A model generated the notes under the pieces. The model was not told where the DNA came from and did no database searches. It worked only from the letters and a program-made list of their open reading frames with translations. The translations under genes were made by a program, and so were the position numbers. Source: Thermaceae bacterium (GTDB lineage Bacteria > Deinococcota > Deinococci > Deinococcales > Marinithermaceae). Taken from it: 44,009 nt of DNA. The stretch covers positions 1 to 44,009 of the forward strand of contig WFNN01000193.1 of assembly GCA_015488545.1 (NCBI GenBank), in the 5' to 3' direction. Positions 39,726-44,009 of this stretch are shown here, in pieces; positions within the stretch are counted from its first letter, which is position 1, and each line of letters begins with the position of its first letter.

Positions 39726-40742
39726 CTAGGTCATTTGCAAGGCTTCGATGACCGCGTCGGTGAACTCCTCGGTGGTGGCGCGCCCGCCGAGGTCCGGCGT
39801 CCGGGGTCCCGTTTCCAGCACCCGGTCGATCGCCGCCTCGATCCGCCTGGCGGTCTCGCCTTCGCCGAGGTGTTCCAGCATCATGGCGGCCGAGAGGATG
39901 GTGGCGGTGGGGTTGGCGATGCCCTTTCCGGCGATATCGGGGGCCGAGCCGTGGACCGGTTCGAAGATGGCCGCCCGGTCACCGATGTTTCCGCTGGGGG
40001 CGATGCCAAGACCGCCGACCAGCCCGGCGGTGAGGTCGGAGAGGATGTCGCCGAAAAGATTCTCCATGACCAGGACGTCGAAGTCCTGGGGCCGGCGGAC
40101 CAGCCGCATGGCGCAGGCGTCCACGATAACTTCCTGGATCTCCACGTTGGGGTGGCGTTTGGCCGCGTCGTGCGCGGCCTCCAGGAACAGCCCATCGGAA
40201 AGCGGCAGGACGTTGGCCTTGTGCACCAGCGCTAGCCGACCCTTCCTGCGCTCGGCGAGCCGGAGGGCGTACTCGGCGATGCGGTAGCTGGCGTCGTAGG
40301 TGATGACCCGGTCGGCGATCGCCACCTTGCCCCGGGCGTAGATCCGCTCCTGCTCCACGTAAAGCCCCTCGGTGTTCTCCCGGACCACGACCAGGTCGGT
40401 GCCCGGAACCGAACCCGGGACCGGGTGGTACTTCGCCGGCCGGACGTTGGCGTACAGGTCGAGCCGGCGGCGGAGGTAGCGGATGGCGCCGAAGAACCCG
40501 GGAACCTTCTTGGTGGGGCTGGTGGCGGCGCCGAAGAGGGTGGCGTCGGTGGCCAGGATCTTTTCCACCGTCTCCTCGGGTACCGAGGTGCCGTACTTCT
40601 CGAAGGTTTCCCAGCCCGCCTCGGCCTCGACGAAGACCAGGGGGAGGCCGGTGGCCTCGAGGACCCGCCGGGCGGCGGGAACCACCTCGTGTCCGATGCC
40701 GTCGCCTTCGATCAGGGTAATCCGGTAGGGAGGGTTAGCCAT
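39726..40742 (-). CDS. hicdh: homoisocitrate dehydrogenase (alpha-aminoadipate lysine pathway)
   Basis: [28 protein letters not shown]...[30 protein letters not shown]...; extended resemblance to the Thermus enzyme as recalled. Confidence 0.92.
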
Positions 40743-41172
40743 CGCGTTTCACCGCGCCTATCCTACGCCTTCGGCCCTGGCGGCCAAGCTCGTAGGTCGC
40801 CAGGGCGACCCCCAGGCCGATAAGCACGTCGCCTACGCTGATCACCTGGTGGGTCAGGGGGATGACGTCGCCGATATAGCGCAGCGGGTCGTCGGGTCTG
40901 GCCAGGACGTGGAGCCCGTCGCCGCGCTGGGCCAGGATGGGGATCGCCCGGGGTATGCCCGCCCGGCGCAGGGCGGCCGCGGTGACCGGCATCTGGCCGC
41001 CGTAGGCCAGGATCGCCAGGGTGTTGAGGGCAAACCCCGCCGCCACCAGCCAGAGCCCTCTTAGGTGGAGGTTTTTCGCCAGGCCGTAGGCCACCAACCC
41101 GAGCGCCAGGAGCTCAAGGCCCCGGCCCCAGGTGGCCGGGTCTAGCCGGCCGGCGAGCGCCAGGCGACGCAC
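40735..41172 (-). CDS. membrane protein, DUF5317-like; true start probably upstream, overlapping the HD-GYP gene
   Basis: [32 protein letters not shown]; frame continues upstream as FIGGVLAGFLAGLAGGVRPRDYAEAELRAGWAF. Confidence 0.7.
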
Positions 41173-41216
41173 CGCGGCCTCGAGCAGGGCGGCGGCGACG
41201 AAGGCCCAGCCCGCCC

Positions 41217-42623
41217 TTAGTTCCGCTTCGGCGTAGTCGCGGGGCCGGACGCCGCCGGCGAGGCCGGCGAGGAATCCGGCGAGGACGCCTCCGATGAATA
41301 GGTTCGTAGGAACACCTCCCGGTCGCGCCAGACGGGGTCGCGCTCCCAGAGCTCCTTAAAGAGCGCGACCAGCTCGGGGTCGAACTGGGTGCCGGCGTTG
41401 TCGAGCACCTCCTCGAGCGCCGCCTCCGGGGTCTTGGCGGGCCGGTAGGGGCGCCCGGCGGTCATCGCCTCGTAGGCGTCGGCCAGCGCCACGATGCGGG
41501 CCCAGCGGTGGATGCCCGTTGCCTTAAGCCCGTCGGGGTAGCCCCGGCCGTCCCAGCGCTCGTGGTGCTGGCGGACGATGGGCAGGATGTCGCTGAAAAG
41601 CGGCGCCTTGCTCAAGAGCTCCTCCCCCTTGACCGGGTGCTCCTTGATGCGGGCGAACTCCTCGTCGGTGAGCCGGCCGGGTTTCAGGAGAATGTGGTCG
41701 GGGATTGCGAGCTTGCCGATGTCGTGGACCCGGGCCCCGAGCCTTAGCTTATCCCGGTCCACCGCGTCCAGGCCGGCGGCCTTGGCCAGGTCCACCGCGA
41801 TTGCCGCCACCCGTTCGGAGTGAAGCCGGGTGTGGCGGTCCTTGGCGTCGATGGTGGCCATCAGGGTCTCGACCGTCTGTTCGAAGGCATCTTTCAGGCG
41901 AACGAACTCGTCCCAGTGGAAGCGGGCGTAGTAAAGCGGGACCAGGAAGAGAAGCACCGGCCAGCCCCCCCAGCCCCCGAGCACCGGCGGGTTAGCAGTG
42001 TAGAGACGGGCAAATAGCAGGGCCACCGGGGTGAGCACCAGGTAGCTGAGGCTCAGCCAGCTGAAGTTGGCCTGCCAGACCCGGAGGAGGGGGGACTCGG
42101 TGTAGAGCGCCACCATGTAAGCGACCAGGGTGATGTTGACGAAATAAAACACGAACCCTCCTGCAAGTATGGCGAGCCCGTCGGCAAGGTCACGGGAAAG
42201 AGCGAGACCGATAAGGTGCTGGTCTGTAGCGTGGAAAGCCAGCGCTCCCAGCGCGACGCTCAGGGCCATCTGGAGTCGGTTAAACAGGTCGGCGTAGATG
42301 GGGTAGGTTCTGTCCCGCAGGAACCGCCGGTTCCAGTTGAAAAAAAACGCGAGCAGGGGGATTACCCAAAGCGGGAAGACCAACAGGGCGGCGAGCAGGA
42401 CGATGAAGAGCTGGGAGATCGTGGCCTTGAGGGGAAGCCGGATTTGGGTGTTCTGGATCCAGGCGGCGACGAGACCCCAGAAGGCGAGGTCGAGGGGGTT
42501 CCCGGCCGGGCGGGGGTCAAGGCGGTAAAGGAGCCAAAGCAGCGGCACCAGGGCCAGCGCCAGGGCCGCGTTGAAAAGCCGGGCCCGGCGGGGGAAAAGG
42601 TTGGCCGCGGGTTCCTTGGCCAT
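41217..42623 (-). CDS. membrane HD-GYP domain protein (putative c-di-GMP phosphodiesterase)
   Basis: Multiple TM N-terminus; HSERVAAIAVDLAKAAG, HDIGKLAIPDHILLKPGRL, HHERWDGRGYPDGL. Confidence 0.93.
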   Translation of the reverse strand: MAKEPAANLFPRRARLFNAALALALVPLLWLLYRLDPRPAGNPLDLAFWGLVAAWIQNTQIRLPLKATISQLFIVLLAALLVFPLWVIPLLAFFFNWNRRFLRDRTYPIYADLFNRLQMALSVALGALAFHATDQHLIGLALSRDLADGLAILAGGFVFYFVNITLVAYMVALYTESPLLRVWQANFSWLSLSYLVLTPVALLFARLYTANPPVLGGWGGWPVLLFLVPLYYARFHWDEFVRLKDAFEQTVETLMATIDAKDRHTRLHSERVAAIAVDLAKAAGLDAVDRDKLRLGARVHDIGKLAIPDHILLKPGRLTDEEFARIKEHPVKGEELLSKAPLFSDILPIVRQHHERWDGRGYPDGLKATGIHRWARIVALADAYEAMTAGRPYRPAKTPEAALEEVLDNAGTQFDPELVALFKELWERDPVWRDREVFLRTYSSEASSPDSSPASPAASGPATTPKRN

Positions 42624-42637
42624 GGCGCAGTGCAACC

Positions 42638-42643
42638 ATTATA
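42638..42643 (-). promoter_or_regulatory. -10 TATAAT of HD-GYP gene
   Basis: Perfect TATAAT 14 nt upstream of ATG 42623 (2 nt upstream of in-frame TTG 42635). Confidence 0.55.
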
Positions 42644-42647
42644 CGTT

Positions 42648-42676
42648 AAGGGAGCGCGGGCTTTCCGCGCTCCCTT
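42648..42676 (-). terminator. terminator-like hairpin downstream of 30-aa ORF
   Basis: AAGGGAGCGCGG GCTTT CCGCGCTCCCTT, 12-bp perfect stem. Confidence 0.7.
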
Positions 42677-42697
42677 CTTCGCTAACGTAGCCCTAGC

Positions 42698-42790
42698 TTA
42701 CGGGTCGAAATTGGCGCCGGCACCCGCAGCGATTGCCAACGCGATCAGGCTCATCAGCATTCCGAACAGCTTGGCAAGGTTCCTCTTCAT
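42698..42790 (-). CDS. small hydrophobic peptide (30 aa): MKRNLAKLFGMLMSLIALAIAAGAGANFDP
   Basis: ATG 42790, SD-like GGGGGAG 5 nt upstream, stop TAA 42698-42700, own promoter and downstream hairpin; absent from supplied ORF track (below size cut-off). Confidence 0.65.
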   Translation of the reverse strand: MKRNLAKLFGMLMSLIALAIAAGAGANFDP

Positions 42791-42844
42791 TTCCACTCCC
42801 CCTCTCCTCGTGCGCTTCTGGGTTCTTGCCCTTTCGCTAGCTGC

Positions 42845-42874
42845 ATGGTAGCCTTTGCGCAAGGCAACTGTCAA
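42845..42874 (-). promoter_or_regulatory. promoter TTGACA-N18-TACCAT for 30-aa ORF
   Basis: -35 complement 42869-42874, -10 complement 42845-42850; inverted repeat GCCTT-N5-AAGGC in the spacer. Confidence 0.7.
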
Positions 42875-42886
42875 TAAGTAAACTAG

Positions 42887-43075
42887 CTAAACTTTAATAT
42901 AGTAATGTGTGCTGGGCAATGCTTCGTGCACTACCTGCGTCCAGAAATCGCCGCCGATCGGAAAAGCGGCGGCGGCGGTTCCGCGGTAAATGCCCTTCTG
43001 TATCGCTAATTCCAAAATTCCCGCGAGGGAAAATCCTTGGTCATATTTCTTATCGAGCATTTTAGCATCCCCCAT
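42887..43075 (-). CDS. orphan small ORF (62 aa or shorter), unknown function
   Basis: MLDKKYDQGFSLAGILELAIQKGIYRGTAAAAFPIGGDFWTQVVHEALPSTHYYIKV; fills otherwise empty, less GC-rich intergenic space. Confidence 0.35.
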   Translation of the reverse strand: MGDAKMLDKKYDQGFSLAGILELAIQKGIYRGTAAAAFPIGGDFWTQVVHEALPSTHYYIKV

Positions 43076-43096
43076 TTGGGGGCCCCCGTTTGGGGG
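43069..43096. repeat. two abutting 14-bp palindromes CCCCC(A/G)TTTGGGGG
   Basis: CCCCCATTTGGGGG (43069-43082) immediately followed by CCCCCGTTTGGGGG (43083-43096), directly abutting TTGACA 43097-43102. Confidence 0.9.
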
Positions 43097-43137
43097 TTGA
43101 CACGGTTTCGCCGGCTCCGGGGGTGCAACATAGAGGC

Positions 43138-44009
43138 ATGCCGTTTCTCTTGCTGCCCACCCTGGGACCCCTGCACCTGGCGCACCCCCGTTACAACGCG
43201 GTAACGCTGGTTGAGCTCACCCGGGCCTTCGAACCCGACGCGGTGCTTCTGGCTTCGGTGAGCCCCGAAGGCCTGGCCAGCGGGGCCTGGCGGGACCGCG
43301 AGGAGCTCGGCCTTTTCTTCCTCCTGCCCTGGGCCGAACGTTCTGGTGTGCCGGTGGAGGCGATCGGCGATCGGGCCGAGGACCTGGCCGGCGAGGCCGA
43401 GCGATTCCGGGACTACCTGGGGGAGATGGCCGCCGGCCGGGTGCATCTCGAGCGGGAGGCGGGGTGGCGGGAGCCGCTCGAGGCCGCCCTAAAAACCCCC
43501 CTTACCCCCGAGCGGGCCGGTAGCGAAAGCTTCCTGGAAGCCATCGAGGTCTACCTGAACGCGGTCCGCACCCATTTTGGCGAGGGCCCGGCCACCGGTT
43601 TCCGCGAGCTCCGCATGACCGGCGTTGCCGAGACCGTTCGCCGCCGGGGCCCCGGTCGTTACGTGATCTGGGTGGACCTTCTCGATTACCCCGAGCTCCA
43701 CCGCCGCCTCCCCGAGGCCCAGCTTCCCGGCCCCCACAAGCCCACCGAGGCCGAGCGCCAGCGCGCGGTTCTGGACCGGGCCTGGCAGCTCGCCGAGGAA
43801 GACGATCCGGAAAAGCTCCTAAGCGATCTGCAGGCGATTGGCGGCCCCGAAGCCGGTTACCTGGCGGCCCAGCTCTACCTGGCCGCCGGACGGCCTGCGG
43901 ACGCGCTCGCCCTTTTGGAGCAGGTCGCCGAGGGCGACTTTCAACACCCCGACTACCTGCCGGGCTACCTGCTCGCCCGGTTGGGGCAGCTCCGGGACCT
44001 GGTCGGCGA
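43138..44009 (+). CDS. hypothetical protein, 3' truncated by window edge (>=290 aa)
   Basis: ATG 43138 MPFLLLPTLGPLHLAHPRYNAVTLVELTRAFEPDAVLLASVSPEGLASGAW...; open to window end, typical codon usage; missing from the ORF track because no stop lies in the window. Confidence 0.85.
   Translation, partial: MPFLLLPTLGPLHLAHPRYNAVTLVELTRAFEPDAVLLASVSPEGLASGAWRDREELGLFFLLPWAERSGVPVEAIGDRAEDLAGEAERFRDYLGEMAAGRVHLEREAGWREPLEAALKTPLTPERAGSESFLEAIEVYLNAVRTHFGEGPATGFRELRMTGVAETVRRRGPGRYVIWVDLLDYPELHRRLPEAQLPGPHKPTEAERQRAVLDRAWQLAEEDDPEKLLSDLQAIGGPEAGYLAAQLYLAAGRPADALALLEQVAEGDFQHPDYLPGYLLARLGQLRDLVG

Follow-up and report, generated by a model that had tools for sequence, protein, structure and literature searches.

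In the ComQXPA and Agr systems, a small precursor gene lies beside the gene of a membrane receptor, and the precursor consists of a constrained leader and a hypervariable C-terminal signal. The comX/comP and agr specificity groups are characterized by an allelic cassette, a polymorphic block which extends from the signal part of the precursor into the sensor part of the receptor. The Phr, SHP and XIP signals are also derived from short exported precursors; they are linear C-terminal peptides of about five to eight residues, some of which contain Trp. Among the thermophiles covered by a survey, none had a complete quorum sensing system based on peptides, and Thermotoga maritima is mentioned as the only one with a known signalling peptide (PMC6022435); reports of peptide signalling in T. 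maritima are cited in PMC6022435 and PMC4187201.

The locus described here is located in the window, i.e. the whole 44,009-nucleotide stretch of DNA that was analysed. It resembles ComQXPA and Agr in that a putative precursor gene adjoins the gene of its candidate receptor, and it shares with pheromone/receptor systems in general the linkage of the two genes and their matched allelic polymorphism, which runs from the signal part into the sensor part of the receptor. However, the candidate receptor is a c-di-GMP phosphodiesterase and not a histidine kinase, and the neighbours of the peptide gene encode this MASE9-HD-GYP protein and a DUF5317 protein instead of an AgrB-type protease (or ComQ-type protein) and an AgrC-type kinase. 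In addition, the main lineage consists of diderm thermophiles. None of the peptides of the family contains Cys and hence no thiolactone is expected; in agreement with the first-pass annotation, which had set the peptide apart from classical AgrD on this ground, no model of the AgrD or cyclic lactone autoinducer families matched. The short precursor and linear C-terminal peptide recall Phr, SHP and XIP, and the Trp is shared with some of these signals, but the module contains no RRNPP/Rgg-type regulator and its predicted receptor is membrane-borne rather than cytoplasmic. T. maritima is a thermophile that carries both MASE9 and DUF5317, and its reported small signalling peptide is therefore worth rechecking. 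The partner protein is a member of the MASE9 (PF20972) sensor domains, for which a linked peptide appears undescribed. A literature search, with most subscription journals outside its scope, revealed no relevant paper on MASE9 or DUF5317. The peptide and its partner would thus form a signal-receptor pair in which both the family of the precursor and the class of the receptor are new.

The peptide gene and its locus

The first-pass annotation had proposed the interval 42698-42874 as an unannotated hydrophobic peptide gene. The elements it listed, i.e. TTGACA and TACCAT separated by 18 nt, GGGGGAG, ATG, 30 codons, TAA and a 12-bp hairpin, are present base for base (Table 1). The gene codes for 30 amino acids (MKRNLAKLFGMLMSLIALAIAAGAGANFDP) on the minus strand, from the ATG at 42790-42788 to the TAA at 42700-42698, and approximately 54 nt separate TACCAT from the ATG. 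The interval as a whole corresponds to a longer ORF with a TTG start and is too long as a gene extent, since the conserved gene, according to its homologues, begins at ATG 42790. The hairpin arms (42676-42665 and 42659-42648) pair perfectly over 12 bp. This hairpin has no T-run and is directly followed by TATAAT (42643-42638); the equivalent hairpin in Thermus has a T-run. Sequence comparison confirmed the segment 42698-42790 as a real peptide gene with its own predicted promoter, Shine-Dalgarno sequence and hairpin.

Just upstream of the peptide promoter lies a 62-aa ORF (42887-43075, minus strand) without Pfam match. In Thermus loci (e.g. L106, L107 and L116), a conserved GATACCTATTCTTNCCCTC immediately precedes the TTGACA of the peptide -35 element, where a regulator of the peptide promoter may bind.

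Table 1. Coordinates of the module in the window and peptides of the additional modules (the slash marks the boundary between the conserved AGA end and the start of the hypervariable tail)
Feature	Location	Strand	Evidence or remark
-35 element TTGACA, peptide gene promoter	42869..42874	-	Sequence; TTGAC(A)-type -35 before nearly all homologues
-10 element TACCAT, 18-nt spacer	42845..42850	-	Sequence; TANNNT at matching place in relatives
Shine-Dalgarno GGGGGAG	42796..42802	-	Sequence; GGGGGA / GGAGGG in relatives
Peptide gene, 30 aa, MKRNLAKLFGMLMSLIALAIAAGA/GANFDP	42698..42790	-	Homologues in 60 genomes; conservation and dN/dS
12-bp hairpin 3' of peptide gene, terminator-like	42648..42676	-	Sequence and relatives
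-10 element TATAAT of HD-GYP gene, near-leaderless promoter	42638..42643	-	TANNNT in relatives
MASE9-HD-GYP membrane c-di-GMP phosphodiesterase, candidate peptide receptor	41217..42623	-	Pfam MASE9 E 9e-23, HD_5 E 1e-39; HDIGK and HHERWDGRGYP intact
DUF5317 membrane protein, third module gene	40735..41226	-	Pfam PF17248 E 3e-26; same genomes, usually directly downstream
Thermus second-module peptide MRTLVNSLVWALALVGLAVAAGGGFVW	L151, 2573-2656		
Thermus second-module peptide ...SLVWALGLVAMAVAAGGGWVW	L152		
Thermus second-module peptide ...SLIWALALVGLAVAAGGGWVW	L153, 492-590		TnpB insertion between peptide ORF and receptor gene
Natranaerobius thermophilus plasmid (Bacillota) peptide MNKVVLILVTLLGVVLAGGASFTWGGGG	L149		Before MASE9-HD-GYP, DUF5317 after
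Nonomuraea (Actinomycetota) peptide ...MLMGGVVPPGVSWT	L150		Before MASE9-HD-GYP

Conservation and evolution of the peptide family

A six-frame search detected stand-alone homologous ORFs of 29-30 amino acids in 60 of the 111 Deinococcota genomes, with one copy per genome except in G100, which contains the same locus twice. Members are found in nearly all Thermus and Meiothermus, in Calidithermus and in the family to which the window belongs. Homologues from the same genus (three genomes) are 70-77% identical to the window peptide (E 5e-9 to 5e-10), and the inferred homology is far above chance. The peptide had no match in Pfam, NCBIfam (E up to 10) or PHROGs. A second DNA match in the same genome (L002) was discarded as a chance short match inside a metal-ATPase-like gene, and the L043 matches as lipoprotein signal peptides outside the family.

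Conservation of the frame across relatives, the check that had been asked for, was found: in close pairs the leader has a dN/dS of about 0.1, i.e. it is under purifying selection with protein-like codon evolution, and the proposed gene is genuine. The last five residues evolve several-fold faster than the leader, with a dN/dS of about 0.5 in Thermus. Among the 57 distinct Deinococcota peptides, L15, A17, G23 and A24 are invariant, A21 is nearly so, and position 28 is occupied by Trp (52/57) or by Phe or Tyr (5/57). The tail following the invariant Gly-Ala is hypervariable with a fixed length, of the form xxxWx, or xxx[F/Y]xP in the window's genus, whose peptides have one additional residue and a C-terminal Pro. 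The signal-peptide-like character noted earlier was borne out, as all 57 distinct Deinococcota peptides have the features of signal peptidase I substrates, i.e. an MKK-type K/R-containing n-region, a hydrophobic core, Ala (rarely Val) at position 22 and Ala at position 24.

Partner genes

The location of the peptide gene upstream of a membrane HD-GYP gene had been noted correctly, but little use had been made of it. In all 19 loci examined first that had enough downstream sequence, drawn from several genera, the peptide gene is followed on the same strand by a member of one membrane HD-GYP family, and in a larger locus set MASE9-HD-GYP is next wherever the sequence reaches. The window protein scores 81.7 bits with MASE9 (PF20972), for a cut-off of 24.3. 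In Meiothermus the pair is kept and the remaining neighbourhood, consisting of pil-type genes and a dehydrogenase gene resembling those of homoisocitrate/isopropylmalate dehydrogenase, is lost. MASE9 and DUF5317 are present in the same genomes as the peptide; mismatches in this pairing correspond to contig ends, incomplete genomes, a false MASE9 match in G027 and T. scotoductus, the main module of which lacks both this peptide and the MASE9 N-terminal part. The G027 match lies within a long frame unrelated to MASE9-HD-GYP and was rejected, with no module present. In G008, DUF5317 is encoded elsewhere in the genome and not beside the pair. These comparisons show a three-gene module composed of the peptide, MASE9-HD-GYP and DUF5317 genes, in which the pairing of the peptide gene with the predicted receptor gene is obligate. 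The proposed independent transcription unit thus has its own promoter and hairpin, but it is not functionally independent, as MASE9-HD-GYP comes next in every genome with enough sequence and DUF5317 usually follows.

The AlphaFold model of the window MASE9-HD-GYP protein is fair (mean pLDDT 83.5, pTM 0.62). Its catalytic half matches HD-GYP structures, and its MASE9 half shows only weak similarity to the S-components of ECF transporters and to CbiM/NikM (E 0.5-1). The DUF5317 gene starts at GTG 41172 or at a start further upstream that overlaps the HD-GYP stop, and its product contains invariant Asp, His and Asn residues. Its D..GDxxIxxG motif had raised the idea of an LspA-like aspartyl signal peptidase, which the profile comparison does not support (hhalign probability 1% against LspA); a model without the N-terminal part of the protein had no fold match in the PDB. 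Besides the full LspA match on C6, the window genome contains a second, partial one (G000:C126:20666-20881).

In five genomes, G049, G097, G047, G108 and G103 (L111, L112, L103, L071 and L083), the HD-GYP frame is interrupted or shortened and the peptide gene is intact, reflecting either receptor loss with the signal kept or assembly errors.

Co-variation of the peptide tail with the MASE9 sensor

Co-variation was computed separately in Thermus, Meiothermus and the window's family. The tail distance tracks the MASE9 distance after correction for the HD-domain distance (partial r 0.31-0.46, p 0.0005-0.0055), also with the synonymous distance as a second control (p 0.0005-0.022), and no correlation was found between tail and HD distances after correction for MASE9. 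As the leader also co-varies with MASE9 in Thermus and Meiothermus, part of this signal may come from helix contacts or linkage.

In Thermus, the difference at 4-fold sites amounts to 0.49-0.57 in MASE9 residues 1-180, compared to 0.31 in residues 181-256 and 0.32-0.33 in the HD-GYP domain; the trend is the same but weaker in Meiothermus and the window's family. Both synonymous and protein divergence in Thermus jump from the peptide tail to MASE9 residue ~180, with the promoter and the HD-GYP part alike. The sharpest pair is T. brockianus (G045) and G053, in which identity is about 84-97% in the promoter and about 90% in the leader, drops to 40-66% in the segment that begins with the peptide tail and extends into MASE9, then rises through 70-83% and reaches 87-96% from MASE9 residue ~180 to the HD-GYP end. 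Pairs whose HD-GYP parts are 94-97% identical may have MASE9(1-180) regions with identities as low as 59-67%. The effect extends to synonymous sites and therefore resembles an exchange of alleles, or the persistence of old ones over long times, rather than fast amino-acid change alone. The pattern itself, in which the tail and the N-terminal part of MASE9 behave as one putative allelic specificity cassette, is apparent from these alignments and provides the strongest argument that the tail would be a recognised signal and MASE9 residues 1-180 its recogniser.

Additional modules in Thermus and in other phyla

Three Thermus species contain a second, distant paralogous MASE9-HD-GYP gene with its own DUF5317 gene and a short ORF upstream, and two further modules were found in Natranaerobius and Nonomuraea (Table 1), so that the five additional modules represent three lineages (one Thermus paralogue, one Bacillota and one Actinomycetota). 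The Natranaerobius peptide ends with ..LAGGASFTWGGGG and the Nonomuraea peptide with ..PPGVSWT. Except for the latter, these peptides fit AAG[AG]-xxx-W or a similar motif in which the spacing of the aromatic residue is unchanged. L15 and G23 are retained in the peptide alignment spanning the three phyla. The Nonomuraea peptide departs from the signal peptidase I pattern, with Pro at the matching position and no AxA-like site.

Upstream ORFs were also selected by length, hydrophobicity, N-terminal K/R, a late Trp and Gly-Ala or Gly-Gly. Such ORFs precede 13 of the 175 genes of the neighbourhood set, all of them MASE9-HD-GYP genes (13/13, against 0/162 for the other genes), and they are present in all five additional modules; as the criterion was fixed after the peptides had been seen, these counts gauge the rarity of such ORFs before other genes and are not a blind test. 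A scan of the genome contigs with the MASE9 alignment gave matches in Thermaceae only.

Some of these loci have further particularities. The region L153:492-1974 belongs to Thermus scotoductus G073, whose main module (L154) is the one without peptide and MASE9 N-terminus. In Natranaerobius, the annotation splits MASE9-HD-GYP into two genes that overlap and are read in different frames (L149:3717-5008). In Nonomuraea, the gene directly 3' of MASE9-HD-GYP (L150:5131-6429) codes for another HD-type membrane protein, whose HD motifs are altered.

Proposed mechanism and alternative explanations

We propose, with a probability of roughly 0.55, that the peptide is the cognate signal precursor for the MASE9 domain of the adjoining HD-GYP protein and sets its phosphodiesterase activity. 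The positive N-terminus and hydrophobic core would bring the peptide into or across the membrane, leaving the five to six C-terminal residues on the outer side of the membrane. The Gly-Ala (AGA, rarely VGA) fits signal peptidase I, and the peptide might be cleaved after it or be retained in the membrane with its tail out; in either case the aromatic residue at the fourth position of the tail would be part of the recognised segment. MASE9 would bind the tail, probably after its release, and thereby set c-di-GMP hydrolysis by the cytoplasmic HD-GYP domain in one direction or the other, possibly as a means of density sensing. DUF5317 would be a further membrane component, possibly involved in processing or transport. 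An autoinducer, one of the functions suggested in the first-pass annotation, is the best-supported option, albeit in part: no transcription regulator is linked to the module, which leaves autoinduction a candidate role. Several observations may count against a signal. The conservation of the leader exceeds what the function of a signal peptide alone would require, the Nonomuraea peptide has no apparent cleavage site, the peptide is retained in several Thermus and Meiothermus copies although the adjoining HD-GYP frame is interrupted, and the co-variation of leader and MASE9 would also be expected from a membrane-resident subunit.

Such a subunit is the chief rival explanation. The peptide would be a single-pass helix packed against those of MASE9 and would tune the phosphodiesterase or stabilise it, as other small membrane proteins with regulatory functions do, with neither release nor cell-cell signalling. 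The dN/dS of about 0.1 in the hydrophobic core, where L15 and A17 never vary and A21 hardly does, the co-variation of the leader in Thermus and Meiothermus and the retention of L15 and G23 across three phyla are all consistent with it. However, it is not easy to see why such a subunit should have a hypervariable tail of fixed length, or why this tail should form a cassette with the first ~180 residues of the sensor when leader and catalytic domain are alike, and the separate leadered promoter suggests an excess of peptide over receptor. We therefore consider the subunit rather unlikely, although it deserves to be weighed against the signal precursor.

The peptide gene of the main lineage is equipped with a leadered promoter, a good Shine-Dalgarno sequence and a hairpin. 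The HD-GYP gene begins 43-119 nt after the end of the peptide ORF, with the hairpin in between. This layout fits the production of more peptide than receptor. It also recalls a cis-acting leader peptide or attenuator, in which the hairpin, together with translation of the preceding short frame, would control HD-GYP expression, and the tails of the window's genus end with Pro-stop, a feature resembling TnaC. Yet in 47 of 52 cases the HD-GYP gene is preceded by a near-leaderless promoter of its own past the hairpin, with TANNNT located 9-24 nt from the start codon (mostly at -12 or -15). In L149 and L151, the peptide and receptor genes have no apparent terminator between them and are therefore likely to be co-transcribed; the paralogous and Natranaerobius modules keep the peptide although no such element is evident there. 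An Rfam scan of 42400-43200 gave nothing above the gathering threshold, and attenuation does not explain the co-variation with the sensor protein; we regard this mechanism as very improbable. Still less probable is the small membrane toxin of the first-pass annotation, or a bacteriocin against which the neighbouring membrane protein would protect the producer as one of several allelic immunity types: the peptide is small, cationic and hydrophobic, and toxin-immunity pairs can show matched polymorphism as well, but its variable tail is matched to a receptor, the partner being a sensor that also carries an HD-GYP phosphodiesterase, apparently an intact one, both are single-copy in nearly every species, neither mobile nor patchy, and no RNA family matched nearby.

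Conclusions

More tentatively, and with odds that we place somewhat below even, the signal precursor and its predicted receptor might represent an undescribed form of peptide communication present in several phyla, in which MASE9 directly senses linear penta- or hexapeptides that are made on ribosomes, cut out of a precursor resembling a signal peptide, control c-di-GMP breakdown and occur as species-specific types swapped as cassettes. If this is true, MASE9 would represent a family of receptors for peptide pheromones, with DUF5317 acting in the maturation or transport of the signal. The proposal provides a concrete candidate ligand gene for MASE9, a third partner in DUF5317 and, for each species, short peptides that can be synthesised. 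The pilus ATPase PilF of T. thermophilus binds c-di-GMP, which regulates motility and natural transformability in bacteria (PMC11731258). Such a signal could therefore connect communication between cells with the uptake of DNA, with twitching and with biofilm formation in this standard laboratory thermophile.
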